This document shows, in pieces, positions 5,552 to 36,997 of a DNA stretch of 37,654 nucleotides. Within the stretch, counting starts at the first letter, position 1. Each line of letters starts with the position of its first letter. Below the pieces are notes generated by a model. It was not told the origin of the DNA. It did not search any database and saw only the letters and a program-made list of their open reading frames with translations. Origin of the DNA: Clostridiales bacterium (GTDB lineage Bacteria > Bacillota > Clostridia > Christensenellales > Borkfalkiaceae); assembly GCA_023667345.1 (NCBI GenBank), contig JAMPAF010000018.1, positions 1 through 37,654 on the forward strand. Direction: 5' to 3'. A program made the position numbers and the translations under genes.

Positions 5552-5800
5552 TTACTCGCCCTTGAAAGGAAGGAGCGCCGCAACGCGCGCACGCTTGATA
5601 GCTTTTGATAGCTCTCTTTGGTGCTTTGCGCAGTTACCGCTCATTCTTCTGGGAAGCATTTTGCCCGACTCGGTGACAAATTTCTTTAAACGGTTGATAT
5701 CTTTGAAATCAATCTCCGCCACCTTTTCCTGACAGAAAACGCAGACTTTTCTGCGGGGAGCCTTTTTATAGCTCTTTTTAACGGTTGTCTTTTCTTCCAT
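5552..5800 (-). CDS. rpsR: 30S ribosomal protein S18, zinc-binding form
   Basis: The 82-aa product has the S18 core ([22 protein letters not shown]) and binds the S6-S18 site on 16S rRNA. Cys20 and Cys23 (CVFC), Cys57 and His60 (NCAKH) give the complete zinc-ribbon C+ version of S18. TAGGAG precedes the ATG at 5800. It is the last gene of rpsF-ssb-rpsR, but it is separated from ssb by an unusual 230-nt spacer that contains a structured element (5868-6000); most Firmicutes have only a short gap here. Confidence 0.97.
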
Positions 5801-5867
5801 TTTTTACTCCTAATATTATTTTCCCGTCGATTTCTTTTTCAAGACGATGAAAAATAAATCCGACGAA

Positions 5868-6000
5868 TTTTGGGAGACTCTGCCTCCCTGCCCGCGATAG
5901 TCAGGTGCCCTCGTGATTATCAAATCGCGGGCATTCCCACCGCTGAGGCGCAGGTATGCGCAAATTGTGGCGCGCTGCGCAAAAGCGCGGTTTTGCTTGC
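5868..6000 (-). ncRNA. Candidate structured RNA element, copy A (ssb-rpsR spacer)
   Basis: A block of about 130 nt with a second copy at 35590-35722. In plus-strand coordinates four hairpins can be drawn: 5872-5878/5882-5888 (7 bp, 3-nt loop), 5890-5898/5924-5932 (GCCCGCGAT/ATCGCGGGC, 25-nt loop), 5948-5952/5957-5961 (GCGCA/TGCGC) and 5979-5984/5991-5996 (GCAAAA/TTTTGC). The 25-nt loop differs at one position only. Against copy B, three stem pairs change on both sides (two G-C to A-T, one C-G to A-T). The single A-C mismatch becomes G-U on the minus strand, which is the transcribed strand. No T tract follows, so it is not a simple terminator. Function is unknown. Confidence 0.6.
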
Positions 6001-6031
6001 TACGTTATTAATTACAGGATGCCCTTATTAA

Positions 6032-6460
6032 TTAAAAGGGAATGTCGCTGTCGTCGTCGAACGACTGCAATGCGGGTTTGCCGGAACCTCTGTTGCCGCC
6101 ATTGCTGCGCGCGGGCGCTTCGCCTCCGTCGTAGCTGTCGGAATTTCTGGGCGTTAAAAATTCAACGTCCTGCGCGATTACGTCGACCGCGGTGCGCTTT
6201 GCGCCCGTGCTGTCTTCATAGTTGCGGATTTCGACGGAGCCCGACACGGCAACCTTGTTGCCCTTTTTGGCATAGCGCGCAACCGTTTCCCCGAGACCGC
6301 GCCATGCGGTTACGTTGAAGAAATCGGTCTTTCTTTCGCCGTCGGAGCCCGAATAATTTCTGTTGACCGCGATTGCGAAGCGGCAGATTGATACCCCGCC
6401 CGAAGTTTCGGTGAGTTCGGGGTCGCGCGTGAGATTACCTATTAAAAAAACCTTGTTCAT
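6032..6460 (-). CDS. ssb: Single-stranded DNA-binding protein
   Basis: The 142-aa product has the SSB OB-fold from MNKVFLIGNLTRDPEL through FFNVTAWRGLGETVARYAKKG to about residue 105. A short Gly/Ser/Asn-rich linker follows, then the acidic tail DDDSDIPF that recruits partner proteins. The length and layout are those of a replicative Firmicutes SSB. AAGGA precedes the ATG, and the gene starts 10 nt after rpsF, as in the widespread rpsF-ssb-rpsR operon. Confidence 0.97.
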   Translation of the reverse strand: MNKVFLIGNLTRDPELTETSGGVSICRFAIAVNRNYSGSDGERKTDFFNVTAWRGLGETVARYAKKGNKVAVSGSVEIRNYEDSTGAKRTAVDVIAQDVEFLTPRNSDSYDGGEAPARSNGGNRGSGKPALQSFDDDSDIPF

Positions 6461-11383: not shown

Positions 11384-11735
11384 ATTCAGAATTCGTAATG
11401 CGGAATTAAGCTAAGGTGAAGAGCGTCAACCTCTTCCGTCATTCTGCCCCGTGTTTATGCGACACGAAGTAGCGGAAAGCGGTACTACCGCCAACTGTCA
11501 TTCTGAGCGGAAAGCGGTACAGAAAAGTAAGTTGAAACAGTTACGCTTTCCCGCTTGCAGTCGAAGAATCTTTTTGCGCGCTTTTTCTCGCGCAAAACTA
11601 ACTTTGCCACAACAAACGCAATTTAAGGTGAAAGAGCATTAGAAAAGATTTCTCGACTACGCTCGAAATGACGCGCAATGCGCGTACTTCACTATTCCGA
11701 CCGCAATTCCGAATTCCGCATTACGCATTGTTAAT
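11384..11735. repeat. Composite repeat block with inverted ends
   Basis: The block begins with TTCGTAATGCGGAATT and ends with AATTCCGCATTACGCATT, which are inverted copies of one another, as in small non-autonomous transposons. Inside, 11397-11448 matches 37541-37597 (GGTGAAGAGCGTCAACCTC), and 11468-11602 matches 19036-19168 (family 3: AGTAGCGGAAAGCGG ... GTCGAAGAATCTTTTTGCG). No gene is supported in 11272-11761. Confidence 0.65.
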
Positions 11736-11761: not shown

Positions 11762-12655
11762 ATGTACCACGTTATTTTAAACGGCAATAATATAAACGAA
11801 AAGACCGAAGCCAAAATCGAGACGGTGAGAAAGGTTTTCCGCACGGCGGGCAAGGATATTGAGGTGCACTCCACCGCCCACGCGGGACACGCAAAGAATA
11901 TAGCCACGGAGTTGACCGCAAACGGCGAGTTCGCGCACCTTATCGCAATGGGCGGCGACGGCACTCTGCACGAGGTTTTAAACGGCATTTCCGACGCGGA
12001 AAACTGCACGTTAGGGCTCATCCCCTTGGGCTCGGGCAACGATTTTGCCGAAACGGCGGGCATTTCGCACGACGTAAAGACCGCCGCGGAGACAATCGCA
12101 TTCCGCGCCCCGACTTTTATCGACTATATCGAGCTTGACAGCGGGCTGCGGAGCATTAACGCCGTTGGCATGGGCATCGACGTCGACGTTTTGCAACGCG
12201 CCTACGCGGGCAAGGCGAGGGGCAAAAGCAAGTATTTTAAGGCGTTTTTAAAGAGCCTTAAATACTACAAGGCTTCCACCTTTAAGGCGAGCTGGGACGG
12301 CGGCGACGAGCGCGAGTACACGGGCATAATCGCGTGCCTCGGCAACGGCAGACAGATAGGCGGCGGAATAAAACTTTTCCCCGACGCGGAAATAGACGAC
12401 GGATATATGGACCTGCTCGTCGTCGACTACCTGTCGAAGTTCAGAACGCTCGTCGCGTTTTTAAAGCTGAATTCGGGCAAGGTGAACAAGGTTAAAGAGG
12501 TCACGCACGTAAAGTGCAAGAGCGCGCGCATTACCCCGATAAACGGCGGCGCACCCATTCAGGCGGAGGGCGAAATTTACGAAAACGTACCCCTAAACGC
12601 GCGCATAGTTTCGAACAAACTTAAATTTTACCTGCCGAGCAAAATTGACAATTAA
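11762..12655 (+). CDS. Diacylglycerol/lipid kinase family protein
   Basis: The 297-aa product is a DagK/YegS-type lipid kinase. GGDGTLHEVLNG (residues 64-75) forms the nucleotide-binding loop and PLGSGNDFAE (88-97) the second conserved motif. Later IGGGIKLFPDAEIDDGYMDLLVV and AEGE give the C-terminal beta-sandwich signature. The family phosphorylates diacylglycerol or related lipids with ATP, recycling lipid head groups at the membrane. The exact substrate cannot be read here. AGAGAG precedes the ATG. It is probably transcribed from the plus-strand promoter at 11341-11369 through the composite repeat. Confidence 0.9.
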   Translation: MYHVILNGNNINEKTEAKIETVRKVFRTAGKDIEVHSTAHAGHAKNIATELTANGEFAHLIAMGGDGTLHEVLNGISDAENCTLGLIPLGSGNDFAETAGISHDVKTAAETIAFRAPTFIDYIELDSGLRSINAVGMGIDVDVLQRAYAGKARGKSKYFKAFLKSLKYYKASTFKASWDGGDEREYTGIIACLGNGRQIGGGIKLFPDAEIDDGYMDLLVVDYLSKFRTLVAFLKLNSGKVNKVKEVTHVKCKSARITPINGGAPIQAEGEIYENVPLNARIVSNKLKFYLPSKIDN

Positions 12656-12656
12656 T

Positions 12657-12940
12657 TAAGAATTCGGAATTCGTAATTCGGAATTCGTAATTCGGAATTT
12701 AGAATTTAGAATTAAATCCGACCTTAATATAGGCTTCCCCTCGGTGGGGAGGCTCCGCGTAGCGGTGGTGAGGGGAATTCTTATAATAACACCCCTCATC
12801 CGTCACTGCCTTATGGCAGTGCCACCTTCCCCACGCAAGGGGAAGGCTTAATTGCGGGCGAATTTGCACAACCCTCATCCGTCTTGCTACGCAAGCCACC
12901 TTCCCCCTTTATTAAGGTGGAAGGCACGATTAAGGAATAA
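12657..12940. repeat. AATTCNN array followed by family 2 repeats
   Basis: 12657-12715 is a heptanucleotide array (AATTCGG, AATTCGT and AATTTAG units). 12727-12930 carries family 2 repeats: CCCTCATCCGTC ... CCACCTTCCCC in both orientations, able to fold on itself. Similar units lie at 14088-14146, 15618-15735, 34030-34095 and 37600-37634. No gene is supported here. Confidence 0.75.
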
Positions 12941-19004: not shown

Positions 19005-19035
19005 ATGATTTTAGCCCCGTTGCAAGGCGGCACGC

Positions 19036-19309
19036 AGTAGCGGAAAGCGGTACTACCGATAACTGTCATTCTGAGCGAAAAGCGGTACAGAAAAGTAAGT
19101 TGAAACAGTTACGCTTTCCCGCTTGCAGTCGAAGAATCTTTTTGCGCGCTTTTTCGCGCAAAACTAACCTTACCGCATTACAACGCTATTTAAGGCGAAC
19201 ACCCGCAAACTCCGTAATTCTGGATTGCCGCGGCGGCAAGCCGCCTACTGCGCTACGCTCCGAGCAACCGCTACGCGGGCGGGCGCAATGACGGTAACCG
19301 AGCAACGGA
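19036..19309. repeat. Family 3 repeat joined to a family 1 repeat
   Basis: 19036-19168 repeats 11468-11602 almost base for base (AGTAGCGGAAAGCGGTACTACC to TTCGCGCAAAACTAAC has only small differences). 19189-19309 is a family 1 unit with the same outer flanks as the copy at 84-176. The space 19005-19314 has no supported gene. Confidence 0.75.
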
Positions 19310-34029: not shown

Positions 34030-34095
34030 ACAACCCTCATCCGTCACAACCTTAACGGTTGCGACACCTTCCCCCTTTATTAAGGTGGAAGGCAC
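34030..34095. repeat. Family 2 repeat unit
   Basis: CCCTCATCCGTC-ACAACCTTAACGGTTG-CGACACCTTCCCCC, followed by TTTATTAAGGTGGAAGG and GCACGATTAAGG, the same phrase as at 12905-12935. Confidence 0.7.
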
Positions 34096-34106
34096 GATTA
34101 AGGTAC

Positions 34107-34225
34107 AATAATTAATTCTTAATTCTTAATTCTTAATTCTTATTTCTTAATTCTTAATTCTTAATTCTTATTTCTTAATTCTTATTTCTTAATTCTTAAT
34201 TCTGAATTCTTAATTCTGAATTCAC
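34107..34225. repeat. Heptanucleotide array (TTAATTC)n
   Basis: About 16 tandem 7-bp units, mostly TTAATTC with TTATTTC and TGAATTC variants, ending at the stop of the TtcA-like gene. Related arrays lie at 12657-12715 and 35738-35795. Confidence 0.85.
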
Positions 34226-34226
34226 C

Positions 34227-35087
34227 TTAATTGCGAATTATCTTAATTCCTTTTTCGTATTTTGAATTAAAGTCGTACGTCTCGCCCCTGTATTTAAACT
34301 CTGGCAAGGTGTCGAGTTGCACGTTATGTAAGCTCTTGAAAATGCTCGCGTCGACGTCGGGGTTGCGCGCGCGGAAGTCCTTTATAAGCTTTTTGATATC
34401 CTGCCGCGCCGACTGCCCCTGCTCGCCCAAGGATAAATTTTCGGTGAGTTTGCACGCGCAAGCGATAAATTTTAAATTATTGTAATTTTGCCAGCGGATA
34501 ATTTCGTCGTCCAAAACGCAGTACAGCGGGCGAATAAGCTGCATACCCTTAAAATTGTTGCTGCTAATTTTGGGCATCATTCCCTGTATCTGCCCGCCGA
34601 AAAGCATCGACATGAGCGTCGTTTCGATAACGTCGGACATATGGTGCCCGAGCGCGATTTTGTTGCAACCTAATTCTTGCGCCCGCGCGTACAGAAAGCC
34701 CCGCCGCATGCGCGCGCAGAGATAGCACGGGTGCTCGCCGCCTATCAGCTCGTTTACGCCGAATATATCCGACTCGAAGATTTGCGCGGGTATTTCCAAA
34801 AACGCGAGATTTTGCTTTATGAGCGCGAGGTTTTCCTCATTGTACCCCGGATTCATTACGATATATTCCGCGTCGAATGAGATTTCGGAGTGCTTTTTTA
34901 ATTCCTGCACGCACTTTGCAAGCAGCATTGAATCCTTGCCGCCCGAAACGCACACCGCAATTTTGTCGCCCTCTTCGATAAGCTTGTATTTTTTTACGGC
35001 TTGCAGAAATTTAGTCCATATCCCCTTGCGGAATTTGGTTATGATACTGCGCTCGACAAGCTCGCACGGAGTGAGTTGTTTAGACAT
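34227..35087 (-). CDS. TtcA-like tRNA thiolation PP-loop ATPase
   Basis: The 286-aa protein belongs to the TtcA/TtuA group of N-type ATP pyrophosphatases. The PP-loop SGGKDS is at residues 48-53. A Cys121-x-x-Cys124 pair (CYLCARMRRG) with a further Cys at 210/212 (FIACACK) matches the three-cysteine Fe-S site. TtcA makes 2-thiocytidine at position 32 of tRNAs; TtuA thiolates U54. Which one applies cannot be read. It starts 3 nt after iscU, with the sulfur-transfer genes iscU and iscS upstream, which fits a client that needs an Fe-S cluster and sulfide. Confidence 0.88.
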   Translation of the reverse strand: MSKQLTPCELVERSIITKFRKGIWTKFLQAVKKYKLIEEGDKIAVCVSGGKDSMLLAKCVQELKKHSEISFDAEYIVMNPGYNEENLALIKQNLAFLEIPAQIFESDIFGVNELIGGEHPCYLCARMRRGFLYARAQELGCNKIALGHHMSDVIETTLMSMLFGGQIQGMMPKISSNNFKGMQLIRPLYCVLDDEIIRWQNYNNLKFIACACKLTENLSLGEQGQSARQDIKKLIKDFRARNPDVDASIFKSLHNVQLDTLPEFKYRGETYDFNSKYEKGIKIIRN

Positions 35088-35090
35088 AAA

Positions 35091-35534
35091 TTACTCTTCG
35101 CTGTACCCGTGCTCGTCCTCTTCGTCAGCAGGGTCGGGGAACTGCGCCTTATCATACTCTATTCCGTTCTTGTCGTAATAGTCCTTGATAGCCGCACGGA
35201 TAGCCTCTTCCGCCAAAACCGAGCAGTGCATTTTGTGCGCGGGAAGCCCGTCCAACGCCTCGGCAACCGCCTTGTTGGTGAGTTCCAACGCCTTGGATAT
35301 GGGCTTGCCCTTAATCATTTCGGTAGCCATCGACGACGACGCGATTGCGCTTCCGCACCCGAAGGTGTTGAATTTGACGTCGACTATAATGTTATCGCGC
35401 ACCTTGATATAAATTTTCATTATATCGCCGCACTTTGCGTTGCCTACCTCGCCTATGCCGTCGGCGTCGTCGAGCTTACCCACGTTGCGTGGATTTGTGA
35501 AATGGTCCATAACTTTTTCGCTGTATAATGCCAT
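35091..35534 (-). CDS. iscU: Fe-S cluster scaffold protein IscU/NifU N-terminal type
   Basis: The ATG at 35534 follows AAAGGAG by 4 nt and gives 147 aa. The three cluster ligands are Cys35 in NAKCGD, Cys60 in TFGCGSA and Cys104 in KMHCSVLA, with Asp37 also conserved. The protein builds Fe-S clusters from sulfur supplied by IscS. A charged tail of about 20 residues (DPADEEDEHGYSEE) extends the core. The gene sits between iscS and the TtcA-like gene, but a 260-nt spacer with an RNA-like element and a heptanucleotide array separates it from iscS. Confidence 0.95.
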   Translation of the reverse strand: MALYSEKVMDHFTNPRNVGKLDDADGIGEVGNAKCGDIMKIYIKVRDNIIVDVKFNTFGCGSAIASSSMATEMIKGKPISKALELTNKAVAEALDGLPAHKMHCSVLAEEAIRAAIKDYYDKNGIEYDKAQFPDPADEEDEHGYSEE

Positions 35535-35589
35535 AAAACTCCTTTCTCGCAAAAATCTTTCGCTTGGGGCGCGAAATATTATTTGCGAT

Positions 35590-35722
35590 TTTGAAAGGCG
35601 CTGCCTTTCTGCCCGCGATAGTTAGGTGCCCTCGTGATTATCAAATCGCGGGCATTCAATCCGCTGAGGCGAAAGTTTTCGCAAATTGGGTCGCGCTGCG
35701 CAAAATGGCGATTTTGCTTGCT
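35590..35722 (-). ncRNA. Candidate structured RNA element, copy B (iscS-iscU spacer)
   Basis: Second copy of the element at 5868-6000. Plus-strand stems: 35593-35599/35603-35609 (GAAAGGC/GCCTTTC), 35611-35619/35645-35653 (GCCCGCGAT/ATCGCGGGC, 25-nt loop with GGTGCCCTCGTGATTATCAA), 35669-35673/35678-35682 (GCGAA/TTCGC) and 35700-35706/35711-35717 (GCAAAAT/ATTTTGC). Stem lengths and loop lengths equal those of copy A for the first three. It ends about 50 nt before iscU. As with copy A, no T tract follows on the minus strand. Confidence 0.6.
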
Positions 35723-35737
35723 AAAATTATTATTTTT

Positions 35738-35795
35738 TTAATTCTTAATTTTTAATTCTTAATTCTTAATTCTAAATTCTTAATTCTAAATTCTT
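35738..35795. repeat. Heptanucleotide array (TTAATTC)n
   Basis: About eight 7-bp units of TTAATTC, TAAATTC and TTAATTT, ending 2 nt before the iscS stop, so the array runs directly up to the gene end as it does at 34225. Confidence 0.8.
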
Positions 35796-35797
35796 AA

Positions 35798-36997
35798 TTA
35801 AATAAGGTGCGGTTTTTCGCCCTTTTCCAGCTCTTCCCATACGGGCGATATCGAGCGCAGATATTCCACTACCTTTGGCACTTCCGCTATGATATAGTCG
35901 ATTTCCTCTTCGGTGTTGTATTCCGAAAGGCTGAGCCTTAAAGAGCCGTGCGCCACCTCGTGCGGCAAGCCCAGCGCGAGGAGCACGTGCGACGGGTCGA
36001 GAGAACCCGACGTGCACGCCGAACCCGACGACGCGCATATGCCCTTTGCGTCCAAAAGCAGCAGTAAGCTTTCGCCCTCTATCCCCTCGAAACACATATT
36101 TACGTTGTTCGGCAAGCGGTTTTCGGGGTCGCCGTTTAATTTGGAGTGCGGAATTTTACTCAGCCCCGCAATAAGCTTGTCGCGGAGAGCCGCTTCCCTT
36201 TTCATATTTTCGGACATACACGCGACCGCTTCCTTCAAAGCCGCCGCCATCGCGCAGATACCCGCAATATTTTCGGTGCCCGCGCGGCGGTTTCTTTCCT
36301 GTGCGCCGCCCTCTATCAAATTTTTAAGCTGTACTCCGTTGCGGCAGTACAGAAAGCCCGCGCCCTTCGGTCCGTGGAATTTGTGCGCCGAAACAGACAG
36401 CATATCCACGCTATCTTCTATGACGTTTACGGGGATATGCCCCACCGCCTGCACCGCGTCCGTGTGGAAAACCACCTTATGCTTGCGGCAAACCTCGCCG
36501 ATTTGACGGATAGGCAAAACCGACCCGACCTCGTTGTTCGCGTACATAACCGTGACGAGCGCGGTATCGGGGCGGATAGCCGCCTCCACCTCCCCCGCGG
36601 TGATATTGCCGTGGGAATGAACGGAAAGGTAAGTGACCTCGAAGCCCTCTTTTTCAAGCTTTTTGAGGGTATGAAGAACGGCGTGGTGCTCGAACGCGGT
36701 GGATATTATGTGCTTTTTGCCCTTGGCAAGACCCGCGTACGCCGCCGAGCGGATAGCCTGATTATCCGCCTCGCTTCCGCCCGAGGTGAAGTAAATTTCG
36801 TTGGGTTTGGCGCCTATTATCGCGGCTATCTCCGCGCGCGCCTTATCGAGCGCCTCTTTGGCGATTTGCCCCACGGTATGGAGCGACGAGGGGTTGCCGT
36901 ACGTTTCCTTTAAATAAGGGAGCATTGCGGCGATTGCCGTATCGCTCATAGCGGTTGTTGCCGCGTTGTCTACGTAAACGGTCTTTGACATATACAT
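35798..36997 (-). CDS. iscS: Cysteine desulfurase IscS/NifS
   Basis: The ATG at 36997, 5 nt after GAAGG, gives 399 aa. It is a PLP enzyme that removes sulfur from cysteine. It shows VYVDNAATT at the start, SGGSEADN, the PLP pocket HTDAVQAVG, the PLP lysine 206 in SAHKFHGPKG and the active-site Cys328 in SSGSACTSG on the mobile loop. Its promoter carries a palindrome over the -35 box (37025-37061), so it is probably controlled by the IscR-like protein upstream. It delivers sulfur to IscU and possibly to the TtcA-like protein. Confidence 0.96.
   Translation of the reverse strand: MYMSKTVYVDNAATTAMSDTAIAAMLPYLKETYGNPSSLHTVGQIAKEALDKARAEIAAIIGAKPNEIYFTSGGSEADNQAIRSAAYAGLAKGKKHIISTAFEHHAVLHTLKKLEKEGFEVTYLSVHSHGNITAGEVEAAIRPDTALVTVMYANNEVGSVLPIRQIGEVCRKHKVVFHTDAVQAVGHIPVNVIEDSVDMLSVSAHKFHGPKGAGFLYCRNGVQLKNLIEGGAQERNRRAGTENIAGICAMAAALKEAVACMSENMKREAALRDKLIAGLSKIPHSKLNGDPENRLPNNVNMCFEGIEGESLLLLLDAKGICASSGSACTSGSLDPSHVLLALGLPHEVAHGSLRLSLSEYNTEEEIDYIIAEVPKVVEYLRSISPVWEELEKGEKPHLI

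Follow-up and report, generated by a model that had tools for sequence, protein, structure and literature searches.

Strongly structured intergenic repeats dispersed among genomes of a Christensenellales genus, with two copies in operon spacers

The same block of about 130 nt lies in two operon spacers of a 37,654-nt stretch of a Clostridiales bacterium genome (contig JAMPAF010000018.1, hereafter the window), raising the question of whether it is a structured RNA that belongs to these operons or a repeat that has reached them from elsewhere. The original prediction, made from the letters of the window, described an element of two copies, took selection on RNA structure as the simplest reading and named the minus strand as the RNA. 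We favour, with a probability of about 70%, a different reading in which the family consists of non-autonomous mobile repeats of ~190 bp that are constrained as a folded single strand.

Make-up and distribution of the element

Copies A and B share 86% identity across 136 nt and, as had been described, have the same orientation in the ssb-rpsR and iscS-iscU spacers, each between minus-strand genes (gene orders rpsF-ssb-A-rpsR and iscS-like-B-iscU-like, assigned by Pfam). Alignment of 16 copies from the own genome (A, B and 14 other full copies) gave an element length of ~190 nt, comprising the consecutive hairpins H1 to H5 and an AT-rich tail, in the order H1, a short H2, a long-stem H3, H4, a linker AAATTG-, H5 and a tail like GTTATTATTTT (Table 1). 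The block first reported is real at its coordinates but is not the whole element, as the H1 hairpin of about 40–45 nt lies to its left and ~10 nt of tail to its right. The H4 region consists of GAGG followed by, for example, CGCAGGTATGCG. No protein gene was found in the ~190-bp element. In copy A the H1 foot is degenerate, with CCCG in place of CTCG, and in copy B the iscU Shine-Dalgarno sequence (SD; AAGGAG, minus strand) directly adjoins the H1 foot.

The finer details which had been reported for the two copies agree with the sequence: 5872-5878 pairs with 5882-5888 in the 7-bp stem (H2), where the copies differ by two G-C/A-T double changes and 5877/5883 is an A-C opposition; the 5-bp stem (H4) carries a C-G/A-T double change; and the loop differs at one base (H3 loop GTCAGG/GTTAGG).

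Table 1 Positions in the window of the two copies, their parts and the neighbouring genes.
Feature	Position	Strand	Evidence or remark
Copy A, whole element (H1–H5 and AT-rich tail)	5822..6014	+	ssb-rpsR spacer; own-genome alignment; element plus strand is window plus strand, flanking genes on minus
Copy A, R1 model match	G000:C9:5868-6008		
Copy A, H1 hairpin CGTCG...CGACG	5825..5865	+	hairpin search, alignment
Copy A, H2 hairpin	5872..5888	+	triloop TCT at 5879-5881
Copy A, H3 long stem, loop with GCCCTC..ATTAT	5889..5933	+	
Copy A, H4 (GCGCA GGTA TGCGC)	5948..5961	+	GAGG at 5945-5948
Copy A, linker (AAATTGTGG) and H5 hairpin	5962..6004	+	
Copy B, whole element	35545..35736	+	iscS-iscU spacer; model match G000:C9:35589-35729
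Copy B, H1 hairpin TCGCAAAAATC...TTTGCGA	35547..35588	+	alignment, hairpin search
rpsR (S18), downstream of copy A	5552..5800	-	Pfam PF01084
ssb, upstream of copy A	6032..6460	-	Pfam PF00436
iscU-like (NifU_N), downstream of copy B	35091..35534	-	Pfam PF01592
iscS-like aminotransferase class V, upstream of copy B	35798..36997	-	Pfam PF00266

Runs of 7/14-nt repeats of the AATTCTT/AATTCGT type were seen at window positions 34088-34250, 35707-35827 and 12635-12713, one AATTCTT-type run adjoining the tail of copy B and occupying most of the remaining enlarged iscS-iscU spacer.

Instead of two copies, the own genome contains some twenty-odd. BLAST gave 31 matches, of which 27 were at E ≤ 1e−5, on both strands and in some cases belonging as a pair to a single interrupted copy (e.g. 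L008/L018), and a covariance model covering H2–H5 (model R1, built from the 35 copies of alignment A1) gave 22. The model also found at least 1,085 matches at E ≤ 0.001 in 80 of 93 genomes of the same genus, counting the best matches of each genome up to 35; a few of the same-genus genomes had weak matches alone. At order level, 25 of 396 genomes had a match, 23 of them within the own family and the other two weakly, and at class level 3 of 391 genomes matched at E ≤ 1e−6, all three in the own family. The host genus includes Candidatus Coproplasma: records under the names Ca. Coproplasma avicola and excrementipullorum contain matches (L187 and L213) that agree in coordinates and score with those in the same-genus genomes G045 and G049.

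The family is strongly structured and absent from Rfam, in keeping with the original statement that no described family with this loop was known. At the Rfam gathering threshold the whole window contained only a tRNA and copy A had no match, and a known RNA family was rejected on this ground; copy A had three sub-threshold hits at E ≤ 10, the best being OxyS with 20.9 bits against a threshold of 75. Literature on these repeats or on SD-anchored MITEs was not found in open-licence papers under the terms searched. We also rejected a plasmid or phage origin, since copy A matched none of 72,556 plasmid records or 50,697 phage records at E ≤ 1e−5. One copy was seen in a contig filed as viral (L267 1460-1598; IMGVR_UViG_3300027374_000002, 84 kb), which may represent either a prophage or host sequence that was misfiled.

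Insertion sites and gene edges

Both window copies are lineage-specific insertions. The element was absent from the ssb-rpsR spacer in all 29 other same-genus genomes, including the nearest (G007, RpsR 99% identical), in which this spacer is an empty 33 nt. The iscS-iscU spacer contained it in 3 of 29 loci (G000, G044 and G045, the G044 contig stopping before iscS), 26 of the 28 other loci being without it, and in the two closest relatives the spacer was empty and 17–19 nt long. When these spacers were rechecked with the model, the sole other match (L083) lay beyond the rpsR end. A further gene pair was empty in one locus (L238, 22 nt) and contained the element in opposite orientations in two others (L273 vs L284). 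For 101 copies the same gene pair was present in another fetched locus, many of these being the same genome fetched twice; of 17 copies inspected, 9 had an element-free counterpart spacer of ≤ 36 nt, other counterparts measured 50–330 nt and one counterpart (L250) carries an element too. One insertion is common to two related genomes (L168, L341), indicating that movement is not fast and that older insertions are inherited. The empty orthologous sites expected of a non-autonomous mobile element are thus present, and mostly empty spacers do not suit the site-specific operon RNA that had been proposed. Lineage-specific insertion in both orientations likewise argues against an operon RNA as the simplest reading.

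Terminal inverted repeats were not seen by eye, the left end reading TCAC, TCTC or TTAAC and the right end being like AATTATTTT. In 99 copies compared with shuffled partners there was no clear excess of short target-site duplications of < 8 nt, and duplications of ≥ 8 nt in the flanks numbered 6 vs about 1.2 expected, several of them tandem or repeat-flanked. Direct matches from flank to flank scoring ≥ 15 were found for 9 of 206 copies vs 0.2 expected, and most of these look like adjacent repeats or tandem copies. An exact 42-bp duplication flanks the element at L359 822-958 and an imperfect 47-column duplication flanks it at L191 1947-2086; in both cases it is the end of the adjacent gene, as called by the ORF scorer described below, that is duplicated, and these are possibly long target duplications.

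We then classed copies by their position relative to genes, which were called around the copies with a purpose-written simple ORF scorer in place of a published gene finder. The copy set comprised 88 of a first 100 matches (12 weak, cut or interrupted ones were excluded), 36 of a second 55 (which also included own copies already listed and one weak match that was excluded), all 96 of a further set and 16 own copies, giving 236 in total; removal of 22 duplicates left 214 and removal of one without an H1 foot left 213. It should be noted that the copies from the G genomes were the best-scoring matches listed and so a non-random choice, that copies L151–L230 were among the matches listed for an H4 pattern and are biased to that H4, and that in every statistical test the copies are non-independent, coming from related genomes.

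H1 adjoined the SD of a gene directed away from it in 49 copies (and 8 less certain ones; median 12 nt to the start codon) and after a stop codon in 58 (and 9 less certain ones; median 6 nt), and 89 of the 213 copies were not tightly anchored (tandem copies, other repeats at the left, unclear genes). Only 3 of the 213 overlapped a confident ORF by > 60 nt. Among the 178 copies with genes on both sides, the flanking genes were co-directional at 139, and 95 left (H1) ends vs 27 right ends were within 15 nt of a gene, where uniform insertion predicts 34.3 ± 3.7 ends. In spacers of > 100 nt (n = 123) the corresponding numbers were 52 left and 3 right ends with 6.4 expected, so the left-right asymmetry goes beyond the effect of short spacers alone; spacers that have since lengthened at the tail, for example through the AATTCTT repeats next to copy B, may contribute. 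Either targeted insertion or the retention of only those copies whose H1 directly abuts the gene could produce such anchoring. This one-sided anchoring to gene edges in either orientation is an unusual feature of the family, as is the fixed place of an extrahelical C within a hypervariable H1.

Pairing, covariation and the folded strand

Among 96 model-aligned copies, pairing was kept in 98.5% of cells and 24 of 26 pairs had two-sided changes, with 459 cells changed on both sides vs 7 on one side. The covariation score was 0.514 vs 0.150 after shuffling, none of 500 shuffles reached the observed value, and shifting the pairing partner abolished the signal. Since these copies were aligned by the model itself, the structure is favoured in advance, but alignment A1, made freely with MAFFT, concurs, with two-sided changes at 22 of 26 pairs, and for the 10 pairs of H3 two-sided changes were found at all 10 in both alignments A1 and A3. 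A structure with compensatory changes, as first put forward from two copies, is therefore upheld in the larger set. The original prediction had set against itself many copies at random positions, in both orientations and without covariation: the copies are indeed many and in both orientations, whereas covariation is present and the positions are non-random.

Covariation also extends beyond the stems, as the middle base of the H2 triloop covaries with the linker base before H4 (C-G or T-A). In 180 parsed copies, GTT occurred with xAC in 17 of 17, GCT with xGC in 21 of 21 and the TCT triloop with G at the linker position in 50 of 51; six copies whose loops were parsed as TAA or TAT break the rule and rarer loops are noisy, some hairpins having probably been misparsed in this count. 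H1 is hypervariable (feet TCAC, TCTCG, TTAACG and TTTCG) yet palindromic. A single extrahelical C is present in the 3' arm of 120 of 193 H1 feet, and single bulges of any base in this arm lie four pairs from the foot in 121 of 134. SD-type and stop-type copies of the own genome mostly have different H1 (within-genome permutation, p = 0.001 for H1 and 0.019 for the core). We treat this difference as genealogy, because genome JAIDSQ has near-identical H1 in two copies of which L162 is SD-type and L205 stop-type, and the idea that the H1 type is an adaptation to context was dropped.

Even perfect compensatory change need not imply RNA when the sequence is a dispersed repeat, and a simple test of relevance here is to compare G-T with A-C oppositions. 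In RNA families G-U intermediates are expected. In 182 core sequences we found 24 G-T and 23 A-C oppositions in 4,580 cells, and in the lower H1 stem 13 and 17 in 2,387 cells; with G-T and A-C equally rare in these stems, the G-U pairs of neither strand are favoured there overall. The whole H1 stem had 122 G-T vs 61 A-C, an excess which is attributed to loop-proximal pairs. Core G-T was ~13-fold rarer than wobble in the tRNA stems of the same loci (24/4,580 vs 9/132, from 11 tRNAs only; Fisher test p = 1.8e−7, calculated with 4,560 cells where the sum is 4,580, a difference to which p is insensitive). Covariation that is nearly wobble-free is an unusual property of this family.

Naming the minus strand as the RNA was based on one A-C cell and is not supported by these counts or by the orientation of 124 anchored copies, of which 57 had the minus strand transcribed and 67 the plus strand (p = 0.42). 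Some results do lean to one strand, however. In free folds, G-U use was higher on the plus than on the minus strand in both contexts (185 vs 121 and 200 vs 166). Copies transcribed from the minus strand have a slightly more stable fold as that strand (by 1.22 ± 0.63 kcal/mol), and in the core helices of anchored copies the oppositions reading as G-U on the transcribed strand were 9 vs 5.

Among the other explanations, the one that survives best, although we consider it unlikely, is a cis-acting regulatory or processing RNA whose fold controls the adjacent cistron, for example through mRNA processing with H1 as a protective cap. The very strong covariation, that of loop and linker included, is what such an RNA would show, and the proximity of the H1 end to SD or stop, the co-directional genes at 139/178 copies, the filling of the iscS-iscU spacer in three genomes in the same orientation and the slight leanings to the transcribed strand (wobble 9 vs 5, and the folding energy of minus-transcribed copies) all point the same way. 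However, a fixed orientation to the gene is absent (57 vs 67) and, with both orientations equal, the RNA would come from opposite strands; the ~13-fold deficit of G-T relative to the tRNA stems of the same loci (11 tRNAs) and the mostly empty orthologous spacers also argue against it.

Candidate machinery and relation to known repeats

We searched 93 same-genus genomes for four families of helper enzyme, and none was supported. Y1 transposase was found in 26 of the 93, and the number of element copies did not differ significantly with or without it (p = 0.39); the match in the own genome is a 43-residue piece, 15 of the 24 genomes with ≥ 20 element matches had no Y1 hit, and no element model match lay beside the Y1 genes at 10 Y1 loci. 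Reverse transcriptase occurred in 30 of 93 genomes with a slight negative link to copy number (p = 0.04). Neither enzyme is supported as the helper, as there was no significant excess of copies where they are present. An IS110 bridge-RNA or TnpB omegaRNA element was likewise not supported, the cognate enzymes being found in 2 (IS110) and 4 (TnpB, zinc domain) of the 93 genomes.

The comparisons with published repeats made here draw on excerpts of the cited papers. An element of the REP/IS200 type, whose single-stranded DNA would be mobilised by a Y1 (HUH) transposase, is a doubtful explanation and ranks somewhat below the cis-acting RNA. Subterminal hairpins without visible inverted repeats or a clear short target-site duplication would fit it, as would Y1 genes in 26/93 genomes with a 43-residue piece in the own genome, and the extrahelical base in the H1 stem is comparable to the bulge in the REP stem which E. 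coli TnpA-REP requires (PMC8266576). Set against this are the genomes rich in copies in which no Y1 hit was found (15/24), the lack of a relation to copy number, the 10 Y1 loci with no element match alongside, and a left end in which no constant 4-nt target was seen by eye. The likeness to REP/BIME repeats and their TnpA-REP (RAYT) lies in the dispersed, high-copy intergenic palindromes, in the stem bulge and in the position of part of the copies near stop codons; the excerpted text describes REPs ≤ 15 nt from a stop codon as stalling ribosomes (446/4,072 predicted; PMC12306157). The element differs in being about 190 nt long with five hairpins, where REPs measure 20–40 nt (PMC3733652), in facing SDs as well as stop codons with one end, and in having no RAYT-type gene that follows its distribution. 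By eye, we saw no unpaired GTAG or CGTC tag of constant form, CGTC occurring within some H1 stems and GAGG before H4.

The element belongs with the structured dispersed repeats of bacteria, which are a known kind. BOX, RUP and SPRITE of Streptococcus pneumoniae are also structured, dispersed and intergenic, and BOX is modular and variable in length (PMC3049150). In the excerpts of that paper, BOX and RUP differ in having IS-like terminal inverted repeats, which were not seen here, and the distances of BOX from genes follow the pattern of spacer lengths, whereas our element is anchored by one end. ERIC, Correia/NEMIS and other MITEs, and CIR of Caulobacter, share small size, strong pairing and intergenic position, and ERIC and NEMIS have been connected with mRNA stability or with cleavage by RNase III (PMC2229807). 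As excerpted there, the MITEs other than CIR form an end-to-end stem loop, in contrast to the consecutive independent hairpins found here, and CIR, with two arms and a linker, is nearer in shape; in our element no terminal inverted repeats were seen and there was no clear target-site duplication. The bcr1–bcr18 repeats of the Bacillus cereus group, which we compared by description only, are interspersed, some being MITE-like and some having a conserved structure, and about half are transcribed in UTRs or operon spacers (PMC3446304); they belong to another clade and anchoring of an end is not described in the excerpted part of that paper.

Quasi-palindrome templated correction acts at hairpins. 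The least probable of the alternatives is that pairing is kept mainly by this mutational process in an otherwise neutral repeat with an unselected fold, which would agree with the excess of two-sided cells (459 vs 7), the equal rarity of G-T and A-C and the almost perfect palindromes of the hypervariable H1, but the covariation of H2 triloop and linker lies outside any local palindrome and the extrahelical C kept in 120/193 feet would be erased. As templated correction explains neither of these, we infer a constraint that acts on the folded single strand.

Returning to the reading of a non-autonomous repeat constrained as a folded strand, the fold of one DNA strand (or a fold indifferent to strand) would be conserved because it is needed for spread, and spread would take place via machinery acting in trans through the folded strand. 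Insertions might survive mainly where H1 is flush against a cistron, whose mRNA H1 could then cap, as a 5' hairpin before the SD or as a 3' hairpin after the stop. Such a cap may be tolerated or, by analogy with REPs near stop codons, may tune translation or decay. A tentative extension of this reading, to which we give only limited credence, is that the family represents a new type of small mobile element which moves by means of the folded strand, uses the hypervariable H1 with its one extrahelical C as the recognition end, and is inserted (or fixed) so that this end meets the border of a gene's translated region, at SD or stop codon, in either orientation. A large family which puts hairpins beside SDs and stop codons, including those of rpsR and iscU, may alter the translation or decay of many mRNAs, and it differs between species.

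Several other arrangements of copies were seen. Head-to-tail tandem copies with a period of 187–198 nt occur at L157, L144, L221, L305, L317, L322 and L340, with three in a row at L157. In the own genome, H4-H5 half copies at L017, L022 and L024 are joined to a repeat with CATTCTGAACGAAGTGAAGAATC, forming composite repeats in which the fusion junction looks identical in all three, and a GC-rich module (of the CGCCCGCC...CGGTCGCAC type, on either strand) is inserted within H4-H5 of L008, L012, L021 and L025. The window also contains a separate direct repeat of 146 nt, 92% identical, at 11446-11591 and 19014-19159.
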